A stretch of 27,000 nucleotides of DNA, taken from positions 1 to 27,000 of the IMG/VR virus record IMGVR_UViG_3300046491_000453; one strand, given 5' to 3'. A model generated the notes under the pieces. It was given only the letters and a program-made list of their open reading frames with translations, was not told where the DNA came from and made no database searches. Source of the DNA: a virus. Positions 2,403-19,782 of this stretch are shown piece after piece. Position 1 is the first letter of the stretch, and each line of letters starts with the position of its first letter. The position numbers were made by a program, and so were the translations under genes.

Positions 2403-2475
2403 GCCTTTACGCCACGTTTGATAACCTGGCACGCAGGCATTAAACTCGCGACCCCACACTCACGAGGCCACTGCC

Positions 2476-2883
2476 ATGCTCCATTTTAGCGTATTTGAAG
2501 AAGCACAAAAAATCCGTGATCTACTAATCAGTAATCCTTCACAAGCTCCAATGTTATGCAATGACGACGATCTAAAGGCCTTACCATTCAAGCCAATCGA
2601 TCTGGGTTTCTTCATCCTTCTAGTCCCAGGTAAAAAGAATAGCCTGACTGGTAGCTTCACCTACGTGGCAGATGAGCGTATGCGTGATCAAGCACGAGCA
2701 TTCGTGACCAAGCATACTGTCCAGCAGTTAGACGAACGACTCTTGCTGGTCAGTACAGCCTGCACGTGGGATGTAGTGCCTAGTAAAGTCAGGGAAGCAA
2801 TCGCATTGGGCTACGGTGCAATGGCTTTCACTACACCTGAACGATTGCAGATACTTGGTGAGAATCCGCAGCACATGAAATGA
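2476..2883 (+). CDS. Unrecognised 135-aa soluble protein
   Basis: The start is supported by CGAGG about 10 nt upstream. The protein begins MLHFSVFEEAQKIRDLL and appears to be mixed alpha/beta. A hydrophobic central stretch (LGFFILLVPG, about residues 43-52) is too short and too well flanked to be a clear membrane span. I see no catalytic signature or cysteine cluster. It lies directly downstream of a terminator and is followed, from its stop codon onward, by a strongly structured leader belonging to the next gene. Its function is unknown, and it is probably an early or accessory phage gene like its neighbours. Confidence 0.6.
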   Translation: MLHFSVFEEAQKIRDLLISNPSQAPMLCNDDDLKALPFKPIDLGFFILLVPGKKNSLTGSFTYVADERMRDQARAFVTKHTVQQLDERLLLVSTACTWDVVPSKVREAIALGYGAMAFTTPERLQILGENPQHMK

Positions 2884-2939
2884 ATAACTGACTGCCGTCG
2901 TATCCTGACACAGTTATTGATTTCTAGATACCACGGCAG
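2883..2939 (+). promoter_or_regulatory. Pseudoknot-like structured leader before the 69-aa membrane protein
   Basis: Two interleaved helices can form: AATAACTG (2883-2890) with CAGTTATT (2911-2918), 8 bp perfect; and CTGCCGT-C-GTATC (2892-2904) with GATAC-C-ACGGCAG (2927-2939), 12 bp with one C/C mismatch. Their order is that of an H-type pseudoknot or a two-state switch. The ribosome binding site of the next gene follows 20 nt later. Confidence 0.45.
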
Positions 2940-2970
2940 CAGACTCCAGACATCTAAAAGGGAGGTTCAA

Positions 2971-3180
2971 ATGATTAAACTCGCTTCAACGGCACTTGCA
3001 GTGCTGGTCGGTATCTGGGTTCGCATGGCATTCCTACCCGGTGATCTCACTAACAGTATTTCAATGAACGTCGCGGTTGGTTGCAGTATGGCTTGGCTGG
3101 CTGTCTTTGGCAGCTACTTCGCATGGAAGCTACTACTGATCATGATACGTCAACTGGGAGCCGCTTTGCGAGGTAAATGA
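2971..3180 (+). CDS. Small two-span inner-membrane protein (69 aa)
   Basis: The start is placed at the ATG at 2971 because GGGAGG lies 5 nt upstream; the open frame continues further upstream without support. The protein has two hydrophobic stretches (about residues 4-22 and 31-57), with a short polar loop FLPGDLTNS between them and a basic C-terminus GAALRGK. It is therefore a predicted two-span membrane protein. Small phage membrane proteins of this shape include holins, antiholins and exclusion proteins. It is far from the lysis genes near 26 kb and has a structured leader, so an exclusion or regulatory role is as likely. It converges with the leftward gene ending at 3211. Confidence 0.6.
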   Translation: MIKLASTALAVLVGIWVRMAFLPGDLTNSISMNVAVGCSMAWLAVFGSYFAWKLLLIMIRQLGAALRGK

Positions 3181-3210: not shown

Positions 3211-3651
3211 TCAAGTCTTGCAAATGTAATTGAAAGCAGCTTCATAGGCCGACCCCGGTTCAAAATCGAATTGGGGCTTTTCAATGGAATCTCGCGAAGG
3301 TGCTAACGGTATTCCAATCACTTCCACTTCAGGGCCCACAAGGACTGTGTGCTTAAAGTATCTTGCCGAGGCACCTTGCATCGTGTGATGGACGCAGTCA
3401 AAATAAACCATCATTTGCGCTGATTGGTAAGTATCTCGCACAATATTATTGTGCTGCGGGGAAAGCCAATTGAACATAAACCAAGCTTTACGGACAGCCC
3501 CGCTACTGACCTTCGTTTTTTCCTGAACATAGACAAAGCCGCCGGGAAAGTCATTAGCACGTTCCCAACCTGGAGCAACATTGGCTGCATTGCCAGTCAT
3601 AGGCGCCAGTGTGCAAGAGAGAGTCAATGCTGCCATAAGTGCTATCTTCAT
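3211..3651 (-). CDS. Secreted protein, possibly surface-adhesin-E-like
   Basis: The 146-aa product has an N-terminal signal peptide (hydrophobic residues 3-17, probable cleavage after TGNAA near residue 23). The mature part has the layout W-x(n)-YV-x(n)-KVSSGAVRKAWFMFNW and then YFDCVHHTMQGASARYF. This resembles small periplasmic or surface proteins of the surface-adhesin protein E type common in Proteobacteria. Two cysteines (in FDC and YICKT) could form a disulfide. The start is supported by AAAGGA. It lies 30 nt downstream of the membrane-anchored 218-aa gene in the same direction, so the two are probably co-transcribed. A secreted protein in a phage suggests alteration of the host surface in the lysogen, which is inference. 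Confidence 0.55.
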   Translation of the reverse strand: MKIALMAALTLSCTLAPMTGNAANVAPGWERANDFPGGFVYVQEKTKVSSGAVRKAWFMFNWLSPQHNNIVRDTYQSAQMMVYFDCVHHTMQGASARYFKHTVLVGPEVEVIGIPLAPSRDSIEKPQFDFEPGSAYEAAFNYICKT

Positions 3652-3681
3652 CAGCTATTTTCCTTTGGAGACTTAATTAGA

Positions 3682-4338
3682 TTAGATGCCTTGCGCTGGT
3701 AGTTCGAACTGTATTTGAAGGACTTTTCGATTTGGATAAAGATCCTTCATCACGCCATTAATTTTCTCATGCTGACTCTTTAAGGAAACAAGGTCCTGGT
3801 CTACATGTGTGTAGATACTGGCAGTGATTTGTTTGAGCATGTGCGTTACGTCAGTGCCAAGAATTTTTTCTATTTCTGGCTCGGTTAAAGAATGGCCGAC
3901 ATTGACATTTGCTGTTGCCATCTTCGGAAATACCTCCTCTAATACGATTTTCGACCGGCTACTAATTAAGTCCATTGCGATGGCGAAACGCTGCGCCTCA
4001 AGCATAAGCTCGGCATAAACTTCAGGGCTATCAGACTGGAGCAGAAATTGCAATTCGTTCGCCTGGAAGGTATTCTCTCCGGTTGGGATGGTGGGATTAG
4101 CCATTACATTAAGCCACGCGTCCGCCTTCGCGCGATGAGGTTCAAGGACATTCTTTCGGTAATTCTCAAGGACGTTCCAGAGATTGAACAGTGTATAGAT
4201 GGCACGATTAGAAGCGCCTATGTTCCGATCTTGCTCTTCTCTCTTTCGTCTTTGATTTTCAAGGTGAAAGGCAGCCCACGAACCAGCAAAAGCCGCTACC
4301 AAGGTCGAGAGTACGGCGAGGATGTCTTTGTATTCCAT
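3682..4338 (-). CDS. Membrane-anchored helical protein (218 aa)
   Basis: One hydrophobic segment at residues 5-24 (DILAVLSTLVAAFAGSWAAF) is followed by a highly charged stretch (ENQRRKREEQDR) and about 180 mostly helical residues. The likely arrangement is one N-terminal anchor with a cytoplasmic helical domain. I cannot name a family. The start codon has no clear ribosome binding site, but it fits the beginning of the membrane segment. The gene is preceded by the 689-bp gene-free stretch and followed by the secreted-protein gene. Its build is strikingly like that of the 228-aa gene at 5028-5714. Such anchored helical proteins in prophage accessory regions are often exclusion or defence factors, but nothing here proves that. 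Confidence 0.6.
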   Translation of the reverse strand: MEYKDILAVLSTLVAAFAGSWAAFHLENQRRKREEQDRNIGASNRAIYTLFNLWNVLENYRKNVLEPHRAKADAWLNVMANPTIPTGENTFQANELQFLLQSDSPEVYAELMLEAQRFAIAMDLISSRSKIVLEEVFPKMATANVNVGHSLTEPEIEKILGTDVTHMLKQITASIYTHVDQDLVSLKSQHEKINGVMKDLYPNRKVLQIQFELPAQGI

Positions 4339-4495
4339 TAGCGGCTTTGTGACCTTATGTGGAGTTAAGAACGCGCAGCGCTTATGGCTAAACGTTTACG
4401 ATTGCCATTACACGCGATGCCGATTTTAGGCTAGAGATCGAAAGCAGTGATCTCCTGATGTTCGAGCGGCATAGACGACAACCGCAACCGACACC

Positions 4496-4521
4496 TTGCA
4501 TGACAATCGTACGGCATGCAA
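4496..4521. repeat. 7-bp inverted repeat
   Basis: TTGCATG and CATGCAA are perfect complements around a 12-nt centre that itself contains CGTACG. Confidence 0.5.
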
Positions 4522-4657
4522 TACATGAACAACATTAGTTGCATCGTCATTGCTTCACCAATGACGCTACGCGACCCACGTTGCTGCTGTGCAATAGTCA
4601 CCAAACGTGTCGAGCATCGTTCAGCTACCCTGTGTCGAACTATGCCGTTTGACATGG

Positions 4658-4676
4658 CTGGTGACGTCTGGTGACG
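4658..4676 (+). repeat. Tandem CTGGTGACG, two copies
   Basis: CTGGTGACG occurs twice with one base between the copies, followed by a weaker ATGACG at 4681-4686. The arrangement is iteron-like, but very short. Confidence 0.45.
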
Positions 4677-4733
4677 CCCTATGACGTGTTGCGCGTCCGC
4701 TAACCCTGCCGTAAGCTGTTCGGATAGCTGTGT

Positions 4734-4750
4734 TGTCGGTCAAACCGACA
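4734..4750. repeat. 7-bp hairpin
   Basis: TGTCGGT-CAA-ACCGACA is a perfect stem with a 3-nt loop and no T-run on either side. Confidence 0.5.
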
Positions 4751-4909
4751 TGTCCTTTGCGCATTATTTGCACACGACAGCCTGGCGTCATGTAAGTGCT
4801 TGATACCAAAGGCATTCTGGCGAGGTCAGTAATACTAAAGCTATTGCGCAGGTCAGAAGGCCGCACTGTCGAGTCACGTAAGCTCATGTTTCCTCTGATG
4901 TTCCTGCAC

Positions 4910-4941
4910 TTATTCACACTTTGCAATCAGCCTGTGAATAA
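4910..4941. promoter_or_regulatory. Facing TTATTCACA sites (DnaA-box-like)
   Basis: TTATTCACA (4910-4918) and its perfect inverse TGTGAATAA (4933-4941) are separated by 14 nt. Both fit the general DnaA-box consensus TTATNCACA. They could mark a replication origin, or simply form a 9-bp hairpin. Confidence 0.4.
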
Positions 4942-5027
4942 CTCCCCAAACCTTGATCCCGAAAATGACATGCTGCCCTGCTTAGCTGCTAGGTGGTAGG
5001 TGGCATCAACCAAAAATTCGACTTACT

Positions 5028-5714
5028 TCAATTACTAGGCTTCGAATTCGCATGACGGTCACTGGACGGTAACTCGCTTTCGAAGTGTGCTCGCAACTCG
5101 GGAATCAGGGTGTGCATTCCAGGGTTGGTCACATACGAGTTGCGCCGGGTGTCAATAACGGACTGAAAATGTGTTATCAAATATCCTAGCTCGCCGTCAC
5201 CGGCCTCAATCTCGATACGAATCTCAGAAGCAAGCTTACATGCATTCAGCCCATAATAAGCCAGTCGCTCCTCCTCAAGTTCATAAGCCTCGTCCAAGCC
5301 TGCCCATAGTTGAAATTGCGTTTCGATCCATGAATTGCACTGTTCAAAGCGATTTGTGAGAGACTTTAATTTGGCAACGAAAGGGATAGGGAGTGCTGTC
5401 CAGTCGGGTTCTGGGCTGAACTCGAATAAAATACTCGATAGTCCATCAAACACCGAGCTGTCATGCTCAGTACGATAACGTTCAATCCCAATTCCGATGT
5501 CATAATGCCGCTCATTGCATTGTCTCGCAAAGCCTTCGAGTTGGAGCACGAGCGCAAGGTACACATGACCGACTTTCTGAGCTTCCTTCGCCGCCTCCTT
5601 TTTACGTTCGCCCCATTTTGCATACGCATTCCAACCGACATTCACGACAGCGCTGATGACTGCACTGGACATGATGAGTGTAAGGGCACTGACGTCCTGT
5701 GATCCTGTTGCCAT
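5028..5714 (-). CDS. Membrane-anchored helical protein (228 aa)
   Basis: The start is placed at the ATG at 5714 (protein begins MATGSQDV). The longer open frame adds a basic stretch that overlaps the ribosome binding region (GAGGGAAACGTAAAGGA). Residues 8-27 form one membrane segment, followed by a charged coiled-coil-like stretch (GERKKEAAKEAQ) and about 180 helical, acidic residues with EPDWTALP near the middle. This arrangement is typical of a widespread group of unnamed bacterial proteins with one N-terminal anchor and a cytoplasmic helical domain. It is the last gene of the leftward set starting at 7034. Its match in build to the 218-aa gene suggests related jobs. Confidence 0.6.
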   Translation of the reverse strand: MATGSQDVSALTLIMSSAVISAVVNVGWNAYAKWGERKKEAAKEAQKVGHVYLALVLQLEGFARQCNERHYDIGIGIERYRTEHDSSVFDGLSSILFEFSPEPDWTALPIPFVAKLKSLTNRFEQCNSWIETQFQLWAGLDEAYELEEERLAYYGLNACKLASEIRIEIEAGDGELGYLITHFQSVIDTRRNSYVTNPGMHTLIPELRAHFESELPSSDRHANSKPSN

Positions 5715-5751
5715 TCCTTTACGTTTCCCTCTTTTAAATGCTAGGCGAAGA

Positions 5752-6222
5752 TCAACGTATTCCTGCGGTCGCGCAGATAGCTGCAACGACGCTTTTGGAA
5801 TCCTTCAAACCAGCGGCTAGGTTGCCGTCATGTGCAGCCGACACATACGCGTCAATGTTGTTTACCGTTATTGTGCAGCCGTAACCAAAGTCATAGCGGC
5901 GGAGCTTATCCACTTTACTTTTCAACAGCTCTTGTGTTCCAGACTCTGCAATGGACATCAGTTCCTCCAAGTCACCAAGATGCTCAACCCTTGCAGATAG
6001 TTCCATCAAGAAACCTTCTGTGCTCGCTCTCAGCGTCGCATCGGAAGCCAACTTTAGGTTGTAGGCTTGCAATTTAGAGATTGCCTCGCTCAGTGCTTTT
6101 TTTTGCATTAAACGGTTCTCAGCATTGGCATTCGATGCAAAGCCCGCGCACACCAGCGCAAACGAAATAACAGCCACCAACTTTGCAGATGGAGAATCCA
6201 AATAATTGGGTAATTTATTCAT
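5752..6222 (-). CDS. Secreted/periplasmic 156-aa protein
   Basis: The N-terminal signal peptide has hydrophobic residues of about 14-29 and an AxA-type cleavage site in SNANA-ENR near residue 35. The mature part is helical, with heptad-like leucines and alanines, and ends in a small domain with two cysteines (YGCTITV and AAICATAG). The start follows the H-NS-like stop codon by 4 nt and has no ribosome binding site of its own, so translation is probably coupled to that gene. I do not recognise a family. The coupling to a DNA-binding protein is notable because the products act in different compartments. Confidence 0.6.
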   Translation of the reverse strand: MNKLPNYLDSPSAKLVAVISFALVCAGFASNANAENRLMQKKALSEAISKLQAYNLKLASDATLRASTEGFLMELSARVEHLGDLEELMSIAESGTQELLKSKVDKLRRYDFGYGCTITVNNIDAYVSAAHDGNLAAGLKDSKSVVAAICATAGIR

Positions 6223-8974: not shown

Positions 8975-11080
8975 ATGATCACCGATAACAACGAAAAAGA
9001 AGGGATGGATAGCGGCGTCAGCGAAGAGCCGTTCGACCACGATCCAGTCCTTGCGCAATACCAAAATGAAGGCGAGCAGGACAAGTGGCAAAAGGCATTA
9101 GAGGCATGCCGCAAGGAGCGCAAAAGCTTCAATGAGGAAGCGGTCAAATCGCTGAACCGCTACGGCGATGTGCGTAAGGATGGCTTCGCCAATTCCAAGA
9201 TGTACAACATCTACTTCATGAACACGGACATCAAGCTTGCCGCCTTGTATGCGAAAACGCCGAAGCCCGACATCAAGCGCCGCAATGACGACAGCCAGGA
9301 TGACGTGTCGCGTGTCGCTGCCTTGATCCTACAGCGCAATCTCAGCTACGAAATGGACAACTGCAATTTCGACGACACGTTCAAACAAGTGCTGTTCGAT
9401 AACGTGGTAACGGGCATCGGCGTTAGCTGGCTGCGCCAGGAGCAGGAAGAACAGCAGCAGCCCGACCTTATCGACCACATGACCGGCATGTCGATGCCGC
9501 AACCAGCACTGGTAACGCATCAGGAAGCATGTACCGATTACGTGGCATGGGATGACTTCTTCTGGAGTCCCTGCAAAGTGTGGAGTATGTGCAGTTGGGT
9601 TGCACGTCGTATCCCGATGACCAAGCAAGCCATCAAGGCGCGCTTCGGCGATAAGGTCGATGACGCCATCATGAAGGAGATCACGTACAGCACCAAGTCG
9701 GAATCGCAGGACTCCAGCAAGGCGAAATTGAATCCGCAAAACCAGACGGAGCCGACCGCTGACGTATACGAAATCTGGGACAAGCAGCGCGAGTTGATCT
9801 TTTGGGTTACCGAGTCGTCGCCAGTGCCCTTGGACGTGCAGGAAGACACGACCAACTTTGACGGGTTCTATCCGACGCCGATGCCGCCGCTTGGTCGCTT
9901 CACTACGTCCAATACCATTCCTATCAGCGACTACCATCTGGTGAAAGGAAAGTATGCGGAACTGGACGAGTTGAACCAGCGCAGCACGGCATTGACGAAA
10001 GCCCTCGGTGTTCGATTTGTGTACGACGCCGCCAGCCCCGAAATAAAAGAGCTGTACACGAGCGTTGCGGAGAACTCCGGTATCGGCGTCAAGAACTGGG
10101 CGTCATTCGCAGGCGACAAAGGCGGTTTGGCTGGCAGCATCCAATTCGCACCGCTGGATCAGATCGCCAGCGCGTCAGCAATCGCAACACAGCAGATCGA
10201 GCGCATCAAGGCCCAGATTTACGAGGTTGAAGGCATCAGCGACATCATGCGCGGTCAAGCCACGCCGTATGAAACCGCCACAGCTACAACGGCAAAAAGC
10301 CAGCAATCGTTTGGCCGCTTTGCTGGTCGTCAGGCCGATGTCGCAACCTACGTGGCGAAGCTACTGCGCCTTAAAGCACACCTGATGTGCAAATTCCACG
10401 ATCCAGCCTTATTGGCAAAACGCGCAATGCCACTGTCGCCAGCCGATCAGCAGTTCATCGGTCCTGCGCTACAGCTTCTGCAAGATGAGCTGATGAGCAG
10501 CTTCCTATTGAGTGTCAGCGTGGACAGCTTACAGCTCGATAACTGGAATACCGAAAAGGCAGAACGCAGCGCATCGCTTCAGGCGATTACTGGCCTGTTG
10601 GGTCAGATTCTTCCGGCTGTTCAGCATACGCCTGAGATCGCACCGTTCGGCCTTGAGATGATTAAGTGGGCTGTCAGCGGCTTCAAGGGCGCGCAGCCCG
10701 TTGAAGGCATGATCGATCAGACCCTACAGCAACTCATGCAAGCCAAACAGCCAGGTGCTCAAGGTCAGGGCGCACCTAAGCCGCCATCACCTGACGACGC
10801 GAAGGCACAAGCGATCACGCAAAAAGCGCAGATCGATTTGCAGATCTCGCAGATGCAAGAGCAGACCAAAATCCAAATCGCGCAGATGCAAGCCCAACTC
10901 AAGCAGCAGGAAATGCAATTGGCGCAGATGCAGAACGAACGCGACAGCCAATTACGTGAAACCCAAGTGCAGCTTCGCCAAGGCGAGTTGGCCGCGAAGG
11001 TCGCTCATGAACAAGCCGCAACGATCCTGACCCACTCGGCAGCGCTCATGAATTCCAAACCACCATTTACAGGCCAGTAA
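8975..11080 (+). CDS. Portal protein
   Basis: The 701-aa protein follows the large terminase by 34 nt, with a ribosome binding site GGAG 8 nt before its start. Its length and composition fit the large portal proteins of P22-like short-tailed phages, which form the dodecameric ring through which DNA enters and leaves. Segments such as KTPKPDIKRR, VTGIGVSWLRQ, GISDIMRGQATPYETATAT and QSFGRFAGRQADVA fit the portal crown, wing and stem regions. Residues of about 590-690 form a long Gln/Met-rich coiled coil with repeated QMQ units, comparable to the barrel of long portals. A 29-bp stretch at 10727-10755 is shared with the 166-aa gene. Confidence 0.9.
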   Translation: MITDNNEKEGMDSGVSEEPFDHDPVLAQYQNEGEQDKWQKALEACRKERKSFNEEAVKSLNRYGDVRKDGFANSKMYNIYFMNTDIKLAALYAKTPKPDIKRRNDDSQDDVSRVAALILQRNLSYEMDNCNFDDTFKQVLFDNVVTGIGVSWLRQEQEEQQQPDLIDHMTGMSMPQPALVTHQEACTDYVAWDDFFWSPCKVWSMCSWVARRIPMTKQAIKARFGDKVDDAIMKEITYSTKSESQDSSKAKLNPQNQTEPTADVYEIWDKQRELIFWVTESSPVPLDVQEDTTNFDGFYPTPMPPLGRFTTSNTIPISDYHLVKGKYAELDELNQRSTALTKALGVRFVYDAASPEIKELYTSVAENSGIGVKNWASFAGDKGGLAGSIQFAPLDQIASASAIATQQIERIKAQIYEVEGISDIMRGQATPYETATATTAKSQQSFGRFAGRQADVATYVAKLLRLKAHLMCKFHDPALLAKRAMPLSPADQQFIGPALQLLQDELMSSFLLSVSVDSLQLDNWNTEKAERSASLQAITGLLGQILPAVQHTPEIAPFGLEMIKWAVSGFKGAQPVEGMIDQTLQQLMQAKQPGAQGQGAPKPPSPDDAKAQAITQKAQIDLQISQMQEQTKIQIAQMQAQLKQQEMQLAQMQNERDSQLRETQVQLRQGELAAKVAHEQAATILTHSAALMNSKPPFTGQ
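10727..10755 (+). repeat. 29-bp repeat, copy 2 (other copy at 2036-2064)
   Basis: 28 of 29 bases match the copy in the 166-aa gene. It lies just before the coiled-coil tail of the portal and encodes QQLMQAKQP. Confidence 0.85.
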
Positions 11081-17863: not shown

Positions 17864-19027
17864 ATGTCCAAAGGATCAGCACCACCAGCACCGGATTACA
17901 CAGGTGCAGCGCAAGCGACTGCCGCAGGCAACGCACAGAATTTAGCCGCCCAAACGGCAGCTAACCGTCCCGACCAATACACACCTTGGGGTTCATCCAC
18001 CTGGACAAGTACCAAAAATGCTGACGGAACTGATAAGTGGACGCAGAACTTATCATTGACGCCGCAAGAACAAGCGGCTTTGAACTCGCAGCAGCAAATT
18101 CAGCAAAACCAGTCGTCATTGGCTACGACCCTACAGCATCAAGTTGCTAACCAGATGGCGAACGGCTACAAGCCGCCTGACATGTCTTCCTATTTGGGTG
18201 GTGTAGGTGGAGTCAATAGCAATTTCCAAAACTTCAATCCGCCTTCTGGTCAGGTAAAAACCGATCCGAGCGCGTACACGGCGGCATCAGGGAACGTCAA
18301 TCTGAATGCGCCCAAGTATGATCAGGCGACAGCGGATGCAGGAACCCAAGCAGCCTACAAGGCAGCGACTGGCTTGCTTACCGATGGATGGCAGCAAGAC
18401 CAAAACAATCTCGATTCCAAACTGCGTATGCAGGGTCTTACGCCGGGAACCGAAGCGTACAACAACGCGATGCAGAACACGTTGCGCGTTCAAGGCCAGC
18501 AGCAAGACCAGTTGGCGAATCAAGCTGTCGTTACCGGCAATCAGCTCGCTAACAACAATTACGCGTCAGCGCTGGCTGGCTATCAGGCGGGCAACTCGGC
18601 ACAAAATCAAGCCTACTCGCAAGGACTGAGCAGCTTCGATGCAGCCAATGCGGCAAATGGTCAAGCCTACAGTCAGGCACTTGGGACATACGGCGTAAAC
18701 CAGCAAGCTATTCAAAACAGCAATGCTGCCCAGCAGCAGTCCTATTCCCAGGCGATGCAGAAATACCAAACTGCTTACGCAAATGCATACCAGGACTACT
18801 TGCAGCCGTTGAACAGCATGAATGCTGTGATGTCTGGACAGCAGGTTAACGCGCCAACGATGCCTGGCTTTGCGTCGTCGGGTTACTCGCCCGGTGCGGA
18901 TTATTCGGGAGCAGCCAGCGCGACAGGACAATACAACTCTGGTGTCGCTGCACAAAACAGTGCGAATGCGAGTTCGACCATGGGTGGCGTGGGCGCGCTG
19001 GCGATGGCGGCGGCGGTCGCATTCTAA
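17864..19027 (+). CDS. Probable internal virion (ejection) protein, Gln/Ala-rich
   Basis: The 387-aa protein has GGAAGGA before the start. It begins MSKGSAPPAPDYTGAAQATAAGNAQNLAAQ and contains PWGSSTWTSTKNADGTDKWTQNLSLTPQEQAAL, a pattern I associate with a protein found beside ejection genes of many short-tailed phages. Residues of about 200-310 carry imperfect repeats of the type QAYSQ-L-x-x-Y within a Gln/Asn/Ala-rich helical stretch. The last 20 residues are Ala/Gly-rich and hydrophobic (STMGGVGALAMAAAVAF), which could insert in a membrane during DNA delivery. The stop codon overlaps the next start (TAATG). Confidence 0.62.
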   Translation: MSKGSAPPAPDYTGAAQATAAGNAQNLAAQTAANRPDQYTPWGSSTWTSTKNADGTDKWTQNLSLTPQEQAALNSQQQIQQNQSSLATTLQHQVANQMANGYKPPDMSSYLGGVGGVNSNFQNFNPPSGQVKTDPSAYTAASGNVNLNAPKYDQATADAGTQAAYKAATGLLTDGWQQDQNNLDSKLRMQGLTPGTEAYNNAMQNTLRVQGQQQDQLANQAVVTGNQLANNNYASALAGYQAGNSAQNQAYSQGLSSFDAANAANGQAYSQALGTYGVNQQAIQNSNAAQQQSYSQAMQKYQTAYANAYQDYLQPLNSMNAVMSGQQVNAPTMPGFASSGYSPGADYSGAASATGQYNSGVAAQNSANASSTMGGVGALAMAAAVAF

Positions 19028-19782
19028 TGGCAAACGTGGACTTCAACTTCGTGATCGATGCCCATAAGCGCATCGCTGTTCAGTTCAGCGGTGGCCGCGA
19101 TAGCTTGGCTTTGCTGCTTGCCTTGCGCCCGTATTGGGATCGCATCACGGTCTACTACACGAACAGCGGCGACGCGTATCCAGAAACCCAAGCACTCATC
19201 GACGCGGTGAAAAACGTCGTGCCGCACTTCGTTGAAATTATGGGGCGCGTTAACGAGGTTCATGAGCAGATGGGCTGGCCCAGTGATGTCATGCAGCCGG
19301 GTACTGGCTTTCAGTTTGCCCGCGAAGACATTGACGGCTATGTGCCGCTGATCGACCGCCACAACTGCTGCTACCACTCGATTATGGTTCCCATGCACGA
19401 GCGCATGAAAGCTGACGGCATCACGTTGCTGATGCGCGGACAGCGTGATCAAGATAGCACCAAAAGCCATGTCGTGAATGGATCGGTAATCGAAGGCATC
19501 CAACTGCTATTTCCGATAGCCCATTGGACAACGGCAGATGTCGAAAAGTGCATAGTGGATCACGGCATTCCGCTGCCGCCGTTCTATGCCGCAGGTATGA
19601 CATCCACGCCCGACTGTATGCGCTGCACGGCATGGCTTGAACACGGTGCCCATAAATACCTTGCAGTGAACCATCCAGAAGTTGCGTCCGAAGTGAATGC
19701 GCGTCTGATAAAAATAAGAGTGGTCGTTGAGCCGTTTATTCGTCGTCTCAATGTAGCACAGGAGACATTGAATGACAAATAA
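19027..19782 (+). CDS. PP-loop ATPase of the PAPS-reductase / DndC-like family
   Basis: Residues 21-26 are SGGRDS, the ATP-binding PP-loop shared by PAPS/APS reductases and related ATP pyrophosphatases. A double cysteine C114-C115 and a C197-M-R-C200 pair, 81 residues apart, match the CC-x(about 80)-CxxC arrangement that binds an iron-sulfur cluster in APS reductases and related enzymes. The C-terminal catalytic Cys motif of sulfonucleotide reductases (ECGLH-like) is absent, with no Cys after residue 200. A sulfur-transfer or nucleotide-modifying role (as in DndC-like proteins) therefore seems likelier than sulfate reduction. Such genes recur in the late regions of several short-tailed phages, with unproven roles. 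The start is coupled to the previous stop codon, and the gene overlaps the next by 11 nt. Confidence 0.82.
   Translation: MANVDFNFVIDAHKRIAVQFSGGRDSLALLLALRPYWDRITVYYTNSGDAYPETQALIDAVKNVVPHFVEIMGRVNEVHEQMGWPSDVMQPGTGFQFAREDIDGYVPLIDRHNCCYHSIMVPMHERMKADGITLLMRGQRDQDSTKSHVVNGSVIEGIQLLFPIAHWTTADVEKCIVDHGIPLPPFYAAGMTSTPDCMRCTAWLEHGAHKYLAVNHPEVASEVNARLIKIRVVVEPFIRRLNVAQETLNDK

Follow-up and report, generated by a model that had tools for sequence, protein, structure and literature searches.

A conserved leader with an invariant 13-nt loop segment lies between two genes, A and B, of the phage studied here, and it co-occurs with gene B among relatives. We tentatively read this leader as an intercistronic hairpin with a recognition loop, through which a putative trans-acting factor would control or process the mRNA of gene B, and this is the explanation that we place first. 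Control of gene B by the leader is plausible because six relative contigs, like the window, have a conserved and structured leader with its invariant loop 5′ of the gene. The window, i.e., the whole stretch of DNA that was analyzed (27,000 bases), is the entire record, and terminase and portal family matches identify it as phage DNA. The relevant features, by window position, are as follows.

2418-2446, plus strand: promoter-like sequence TTGATA-17-TAAACT, sigma-70-like, before gene A (pattern scan)
2476-2883, plus strand: gene A, 135 amino acids, with its TGA stop codon at 2881-2883
2877-2890, plus strand: extended 5′ arm of helix 1 (2883-2890 in the initial annotation)
2892-2904, plus strand: 5′ arm of helix 2
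2911-2924, plus strand: extended 3′ arm of helix 1 (2911-2918 in the initial annotation), mostly the invariant loop of helix 2
2913-2925, plus strand: invariant loop segment GTTATTGATTTCT, columns 39-51 of leader alignment A4
2927-2939, plus strand: 3′ arm of helix 2
2944-2947, plus strand: CTCC, possible weak anti-Shine-Dalgarno partner of 2961-2964 (consensus-fold prediction)
2960-2965, plus strand: ribosome binding site GGGAGG, with GGAGG kept in six of six sequences
2971-3180, plus strand: gene B, with ATG at 2971 and a 69-amino-acid, membrane-protein-like product
3253-3276, plus strand: terminator-like hairpin after gene B (pattern scan)

The two genes appear to form a small transcription unit, for which we infer the order promoter, gene A, hairpin, gene B, terminator. 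Neither gene product matched a named family above cut-off. The case for the promoter rests on conservation, because the scan returned fewer promoter-like sites than shuffled sequences did (2 versus 7.1); the TTGATA and TAAACT hexamers and their spacing were identical in all six sequences examined (window, L001 to L004, and L006), L007 being left out of this count as its contig begins at gene A. Terminator-like sites were about as frequent as expected from shuffles (7 versus 7.2), which makes the scan weak when taken alone. By eye, a G+C-rich hairpin followed by T's lies 3′ of gene B in four of six sequences (L001, L002, L003, and L007), and the terminator-like site of the window differs from it. 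We also considered an N-terminal extension of gene B from an in-frame TTG at position 2917, which is open in the window but was not taken as coding because a TAA directly abuts the ATG in L003.

Elsewhere in the window, an accessory region on the minus strand (3211-6222) separates gene B from the terminase genes. One of the proteins encoded there is Adhesin_E-like (PF16747; E = 5e-9), and gene content differs at the matching places in L003 and L006. A 41-nt direct repeat (2036-2076 and 10727-10767; 88% identical) was found between a 166-amino-acid gene and the portal gene. A phosphoadenylyl-sulfate-reductase-like gene (best E value of 2.5e-10, below the NCBIfam cut-offs) lies at 19027-19782, downstream of the head genes.

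Gene A, used to scan viral contigs, yielded seven relative loci, six of which carry the leader together with the 69-amino-acid gene B, the leader always directly 5′ of that gene. As L003 and L005 are identical in sequence here, there are five distinct leader-bearing relatives, and alignment A4 accordingly holds six of eight possible rows (window, L001 to L004, and L007), omitting L005 and the leaderless L006. In L006, gene A is present without the leader and without gene B at that place. An intrinsic-terminator-like sequence, GAGGCTTAGGCCTCTTTTT (L006:743-800), follows gene A there instead; the last codon of gene A is CAA rather than AAA, and an RNA model built from the six leaders had no match in the L006 record. 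Further searches of viral contigs, by the gene A alignment, by gene B, or by either of two leader patterns, added no relatives to these seven. Among named phages, DNA searches gave nothing beyond short matches at an E value of 3 and searches with protein A or B gave none at E values up to 1, and the protein A alignment had no match in bacterial and archaeal genomes. Two leader-pattern matches in bacterial or archaeal genomes (L022 and L023) have the pattern alone in common with the leader and were taken as chance. Extra copies were likewise absent, apart from the antisense of the same hairpin and weak matches (E values of 2.5 to 9) with the RNA model and an imperfect helix 1 complement in pattern searches for the element or its loop.

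In L003, as in L005, gene B is followed by a second, diverged 3′ end of gene A (L003:4670-4870; 85% over 101 nt), and the sequence past this partial copy resembles the sequence past gene A in L006 (77% over 193 positions). On the basis of this partial duplication and the L006-like downstream match, the leader and gene B resemble an inserted cassette that came in behind gene A and left part of that gene duplicated.

The initial annotation described two interleaved helices in H-type pseudoknot order, and we recovered their geometry in the window as described. The perfect 8-bp helix 1 pairs AATAACTG (2883-2890) with CAGTTATT (2911-2918) at eight of eight positions, and helix 2, given as 12 bp with one mismatch, pairs CTGCCGTCGTATC (2892-2904) with GATACCACGGCAG (2927-2939) at 12 of 13 positions around a C·C mismatch (2899/2932). 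The helices cross in that order, with base 2891 alone as the 1-nt linker between the two 5′ arms. Helix 1 starts in the stop codon as claimed, at the last base of the gene A TGA (2883), and the gap between helix 2 and GGGAGG is exactly 20 nt (2940-2959). Helix 1 is longer than had been stated, however: GAAATGA, at the end of gene A, can pair with the loop as well, so that the helix reaches 13 of 14 pairs (2877-2890/2911-2924) and runs through the stop codon. Searched as eight exact pairs crossing 13 with at most one mismatch, the crossing pattern occurs at a single place in the window, and of 400 dinucleotide-shuffled windows just one contained it. Lone 13-bp hairpins with no more than one mismatch are no rarity, as 21 of 40 shuffled windows had one or more.

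In the window, positions 2881 to 2945 are predicted to fold at −21.9 kcal/mol (z = −4.75) as one helix 2 hairpin. Fold z-scores in the other leaders were −2.39 (L001), −1.33 (L002), −1.18 (L003), −0.91 (L004), and −6.08 (L007), with L002, L003, and L004 folding little better than shuffles. In a 161-nt context, the probability of the helix 2 core was 1.00 in the window, 0.97 in L001, 0.38 in L002, 0.98 in L003, 0.09 in L004, and 1.00 in L007. Taking z-scores and core probabilities together, the predicted hairpin appears well supported in the window and L007, fairly in L001 and L003, and weakly in L002 and L004.

In the comparison of homologous leaders, which had been proposed as a check, helix 2 keeps standard pairs in 76 of the 84 cells of the six-row A4 (90.5%), whereas helix 1 degrades. 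When one side of helix 2 was slid by 1 to 3 columns, 19.0 to 59.5% of cells were paired. Pair-keeping changes in helix 2 were one-sided, to or from G-U, with no two-sided compensatory change on A4, and pair counts showed no excess over shuffled 3′ letters (500 of 500 shuffles were as high or better). We also simulated mutation by placing the observed transitions and transversions randomly outside the loop, with the consensus as ancestor (a simplification). A summed hairpin energy as low as the observed one arose in 1.7% of simulations (P = 0.017); as many helix 2 pairs as observed arose in 20% (P = 0.20), i.e., the pair count is not above simulation. Across the six sequences, the stem arms are not clearly better conserved than neutral sites. 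Evidence for RNA structure is modest, and the hairpin itself is supported by prediction. An intrinsic terminator at the hairpin was rejected, there being no T run (CAGACTCCAG follows the stem on the plus strand and TCAGTTATTC on the minus strand); the terminator scan did not list the hairpin at 2892-2939, and a pattern scan found no sigma-70 promoter within it.

The strongest signal in the leader is the invariance of the loop. Its 13 nt show 0 of 195 pairwise differences, and all 13 columns are invariant in six sequences, compared with 182 of 864 differences (21%) at 4-fold sites of gene A and 128 of 377 (34%) at those of gene B. Within the leader, the 5′ side has 89 of 340 differences and the 3′ arm has 42 of 225; conservation is high, too, between helix 2 and the ATG (25 differences in 270 and 15 in 180). 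At the frequency of invariant 4-fold sites in gene A (28 of 50), 13 invariant columns would arise by chance with a probability of about 5e-4, for a segment that was picked after seeing it. Because the AATAACTG side has diverged in all relatives, pairing with gene A through helix 1 accounts at most for part of this invariance, and not for that of GTTATTG. A recognition sequence would be the simplest reason for it. Downstream, the probability of the CTCC/GGAG pairing over the ribosome binding site ranged from 0.00 to 0.67 across the six sequences, and covariation lends this pairing no support, since neither of its sides varies among them.

Only the window has a perfect helix 1. Of the eight pairs, the relatives keep 7, 6, 6, 6, and 6, with G-U pairs and interruptions. 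On A4, its cell counts were no better than those of shuffles (295 of 500 as high), and one pair is altered on both sides in two sequences. As a 1-nt loop cannot span 13 bp, the earlier suspicion that both full helices may not coexist probably holds for the full helix 2, while a 7-bp version of helix 2 could stand beside helix 1. Such a truncated pseudoknot sums to −26.1 before penalty, versus −21.9 kcal/mol for the complete hairpin. With a pseudoknot penalty of 7 to 10 it would probably be less stable than the simple hairpin, a figure that is an estimate because none of the programs used folds pseudoknots. The suggestion of a riboswitch-like element found no backing in Rfam, of which no family reached its gathering score in the window; at E values up to 5, the matches were two minus-strand miRNA models only, far below cut-off. 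Of the initial annotation, the part that stands is a structured leader that may respond to a protein; the comparisons do not support a conserved pseudoknot or switch.

A pseudoknot, or an RNA that switches between helices 1 and 2, perhaps with a ribosome stopping at the end of gene A as its gate, is in our judgment very improbable, even with a crossing pattern so scarce among shuffles and an extended helix 1 that takes in the gene A stop codon. The GAAAU/AUUUC core of helix 1 is unchanged in six of six sequences, and the leaderless L006 has GCAAT where the others have GAAAT; yet GAAAT also codes for the C-terminal HMK-stop of gene A, so its constancy needs no switch. In all six sequences, the probability of the helix 1 core was 0 to 0.03, and the ensemble energy with helix 2 beat that with the GAAAU/AUUUC core forced (in kcal/mol, helix 1-forced versus helix 2: window, −23.8 versus −31.6; L001, −25.7 versus −26.1; L002, −22.1 versus −23.8; L003, −23.4 versus −26.0; L004, −27.2 versus −28.3; L007, −26.0 versus −39.6). 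The two states lie within 0.4 to 2.6 kcal/mol of each other in four relatives, and the single best 126-nt fold of L001 contains helix 1 (that of L002 contains neither helix core), but in the window helix 2 is ahead by about 8 kcal/mol. Alternation would also leave the invariance of GTTATTG unexplained, given the diverged AATAACTG arm. The most specific version, in which a ribosome terminating on gene A covers GAAAUGA, leaves the loop free or paired, and so determines whether the membrane protein is made, is the least probable of the readings considered here; if true, it would make the leader a phage-specific riboregulator of an unrecorded class.

Two other explanations dispense with a regulator. 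Next most likely after a trans-acting factor, though in itself unlikely, is a putative mRNA processing or stability element, in which RNase III cuts the stem or an RNase E-type enzyme cuts the loop, and the cut would uncouple gene B mRNA from gene A mRNA. An imperfect stem with an internal mismatch does sit between the two cistrons, and the A/U-rich loop is partly unpaired in the ensemble (mean unpaired probability of 0.30 to 0.70) and contains GAUUU, which fits the RNase E preference RN/WUU. However, 12 to 14 pairs plus a short outer stem are near the lower size for RNase III, and 13 invariant loop bases are not obviously needed by a nuclease. We rank behind it, as doubtful too, the absence of any RNA function, with the palindromes as by-products and the invariance reflecting recent common descent or a DNA-level element at the edge of a cassette that recombines. 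This would suit the presence or absence of leader and gene B as a unit at this site, the diverged copy of the gene A 3′ end after gene B in L003 and L005, and the fact that the five distinct relatives are all close. Loop invariance above that of the 4-fold sites in both flanking genes speaks against it, as does the thermodynamic excess (P = 0.017), which is not expected from descent alone.

Under the trans-acting-factor reading that we favor, the RNA would fold mainly as one imperfect hairpin, with helix 2 forming two stem blocks around a 1-by-1 mismatch, and the large hairpin loop would expose the invariant A/U-rich 13-nt sequence. A trans-acting factor, either a small RNA or an RNA-binding protein of phage or host, would recognize this loop about 45 nt upstream of the start codon and thereby set the translation of gene B or the processing of its mRNA, possibly assisted by weak CUCC/GGAG pairing at the ribosome binding site. 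On modest evidence, the element would be an intercistronic cis-acting hairpin, a known kind; in the portions of the published literature available, no work on this leader was found. If real, the hairpin would act in cis through a strictly conserved recognition loop, in phages that were met here in metagenome-derived contigs only. It would also offer a short, testable candidate binding site for an RNA-binding factor and an entry point for studying a small membrane-protein gene. The case also illustrates how a handful of related sequences can set a conserved helix apart from another, just as attractive, whose pairing is perfect in one genome only.

Several known systems offer comparisons. Phages such as T7 have intercistronic RNase III sites, in which an imperfect stem lies between two cistrons as it does here; unlike those sites, the present leader has an invariant loop. 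Moron-type units of temperate phages consist of one or more accessory genes with their own promoter-like and terminator-like sequences and vary between relatives. Genes A and B resemble them in each of these respects and differ in that they are two in number and are separated by a conserved, structured leader.

The autoregulatory pseudoknot of T4-type gene 32, described as lying 67 nt upstream of the start codon (PMC3014915), is a parallel for the pseudoknot first proposed here, by analogy and not as a claim of membership. Both are phage leaders 5′ of a ribosome binding site, with helices in pseudoknot order (in our case, in the window). In contrast to the gene 32 element, helix 1 is not kept in our relatives and the hairpin is favored, and the gene B product does not look like a single-stranded-DNA-binding protein. 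The nearest parallel in working is the T4/RB69 gene 43 operator, again without a claim of membership. The same source presents it as a hairpin of 18 or 16 bases that is bound by its own product, DNA polymerase, is reported as no pseudoknot, and has loop bases conserved between the phages (PMC3014915). The hairpin described here is larger (∼48 nt) and ends 31 nt before the ATG, and, unlike the gene 43 product, the gene B product is membrane-protein-like, with no known RNA binding. What the two would share is a hairpin 5′ of a start codon with conserved loop bases (PMC3014915).
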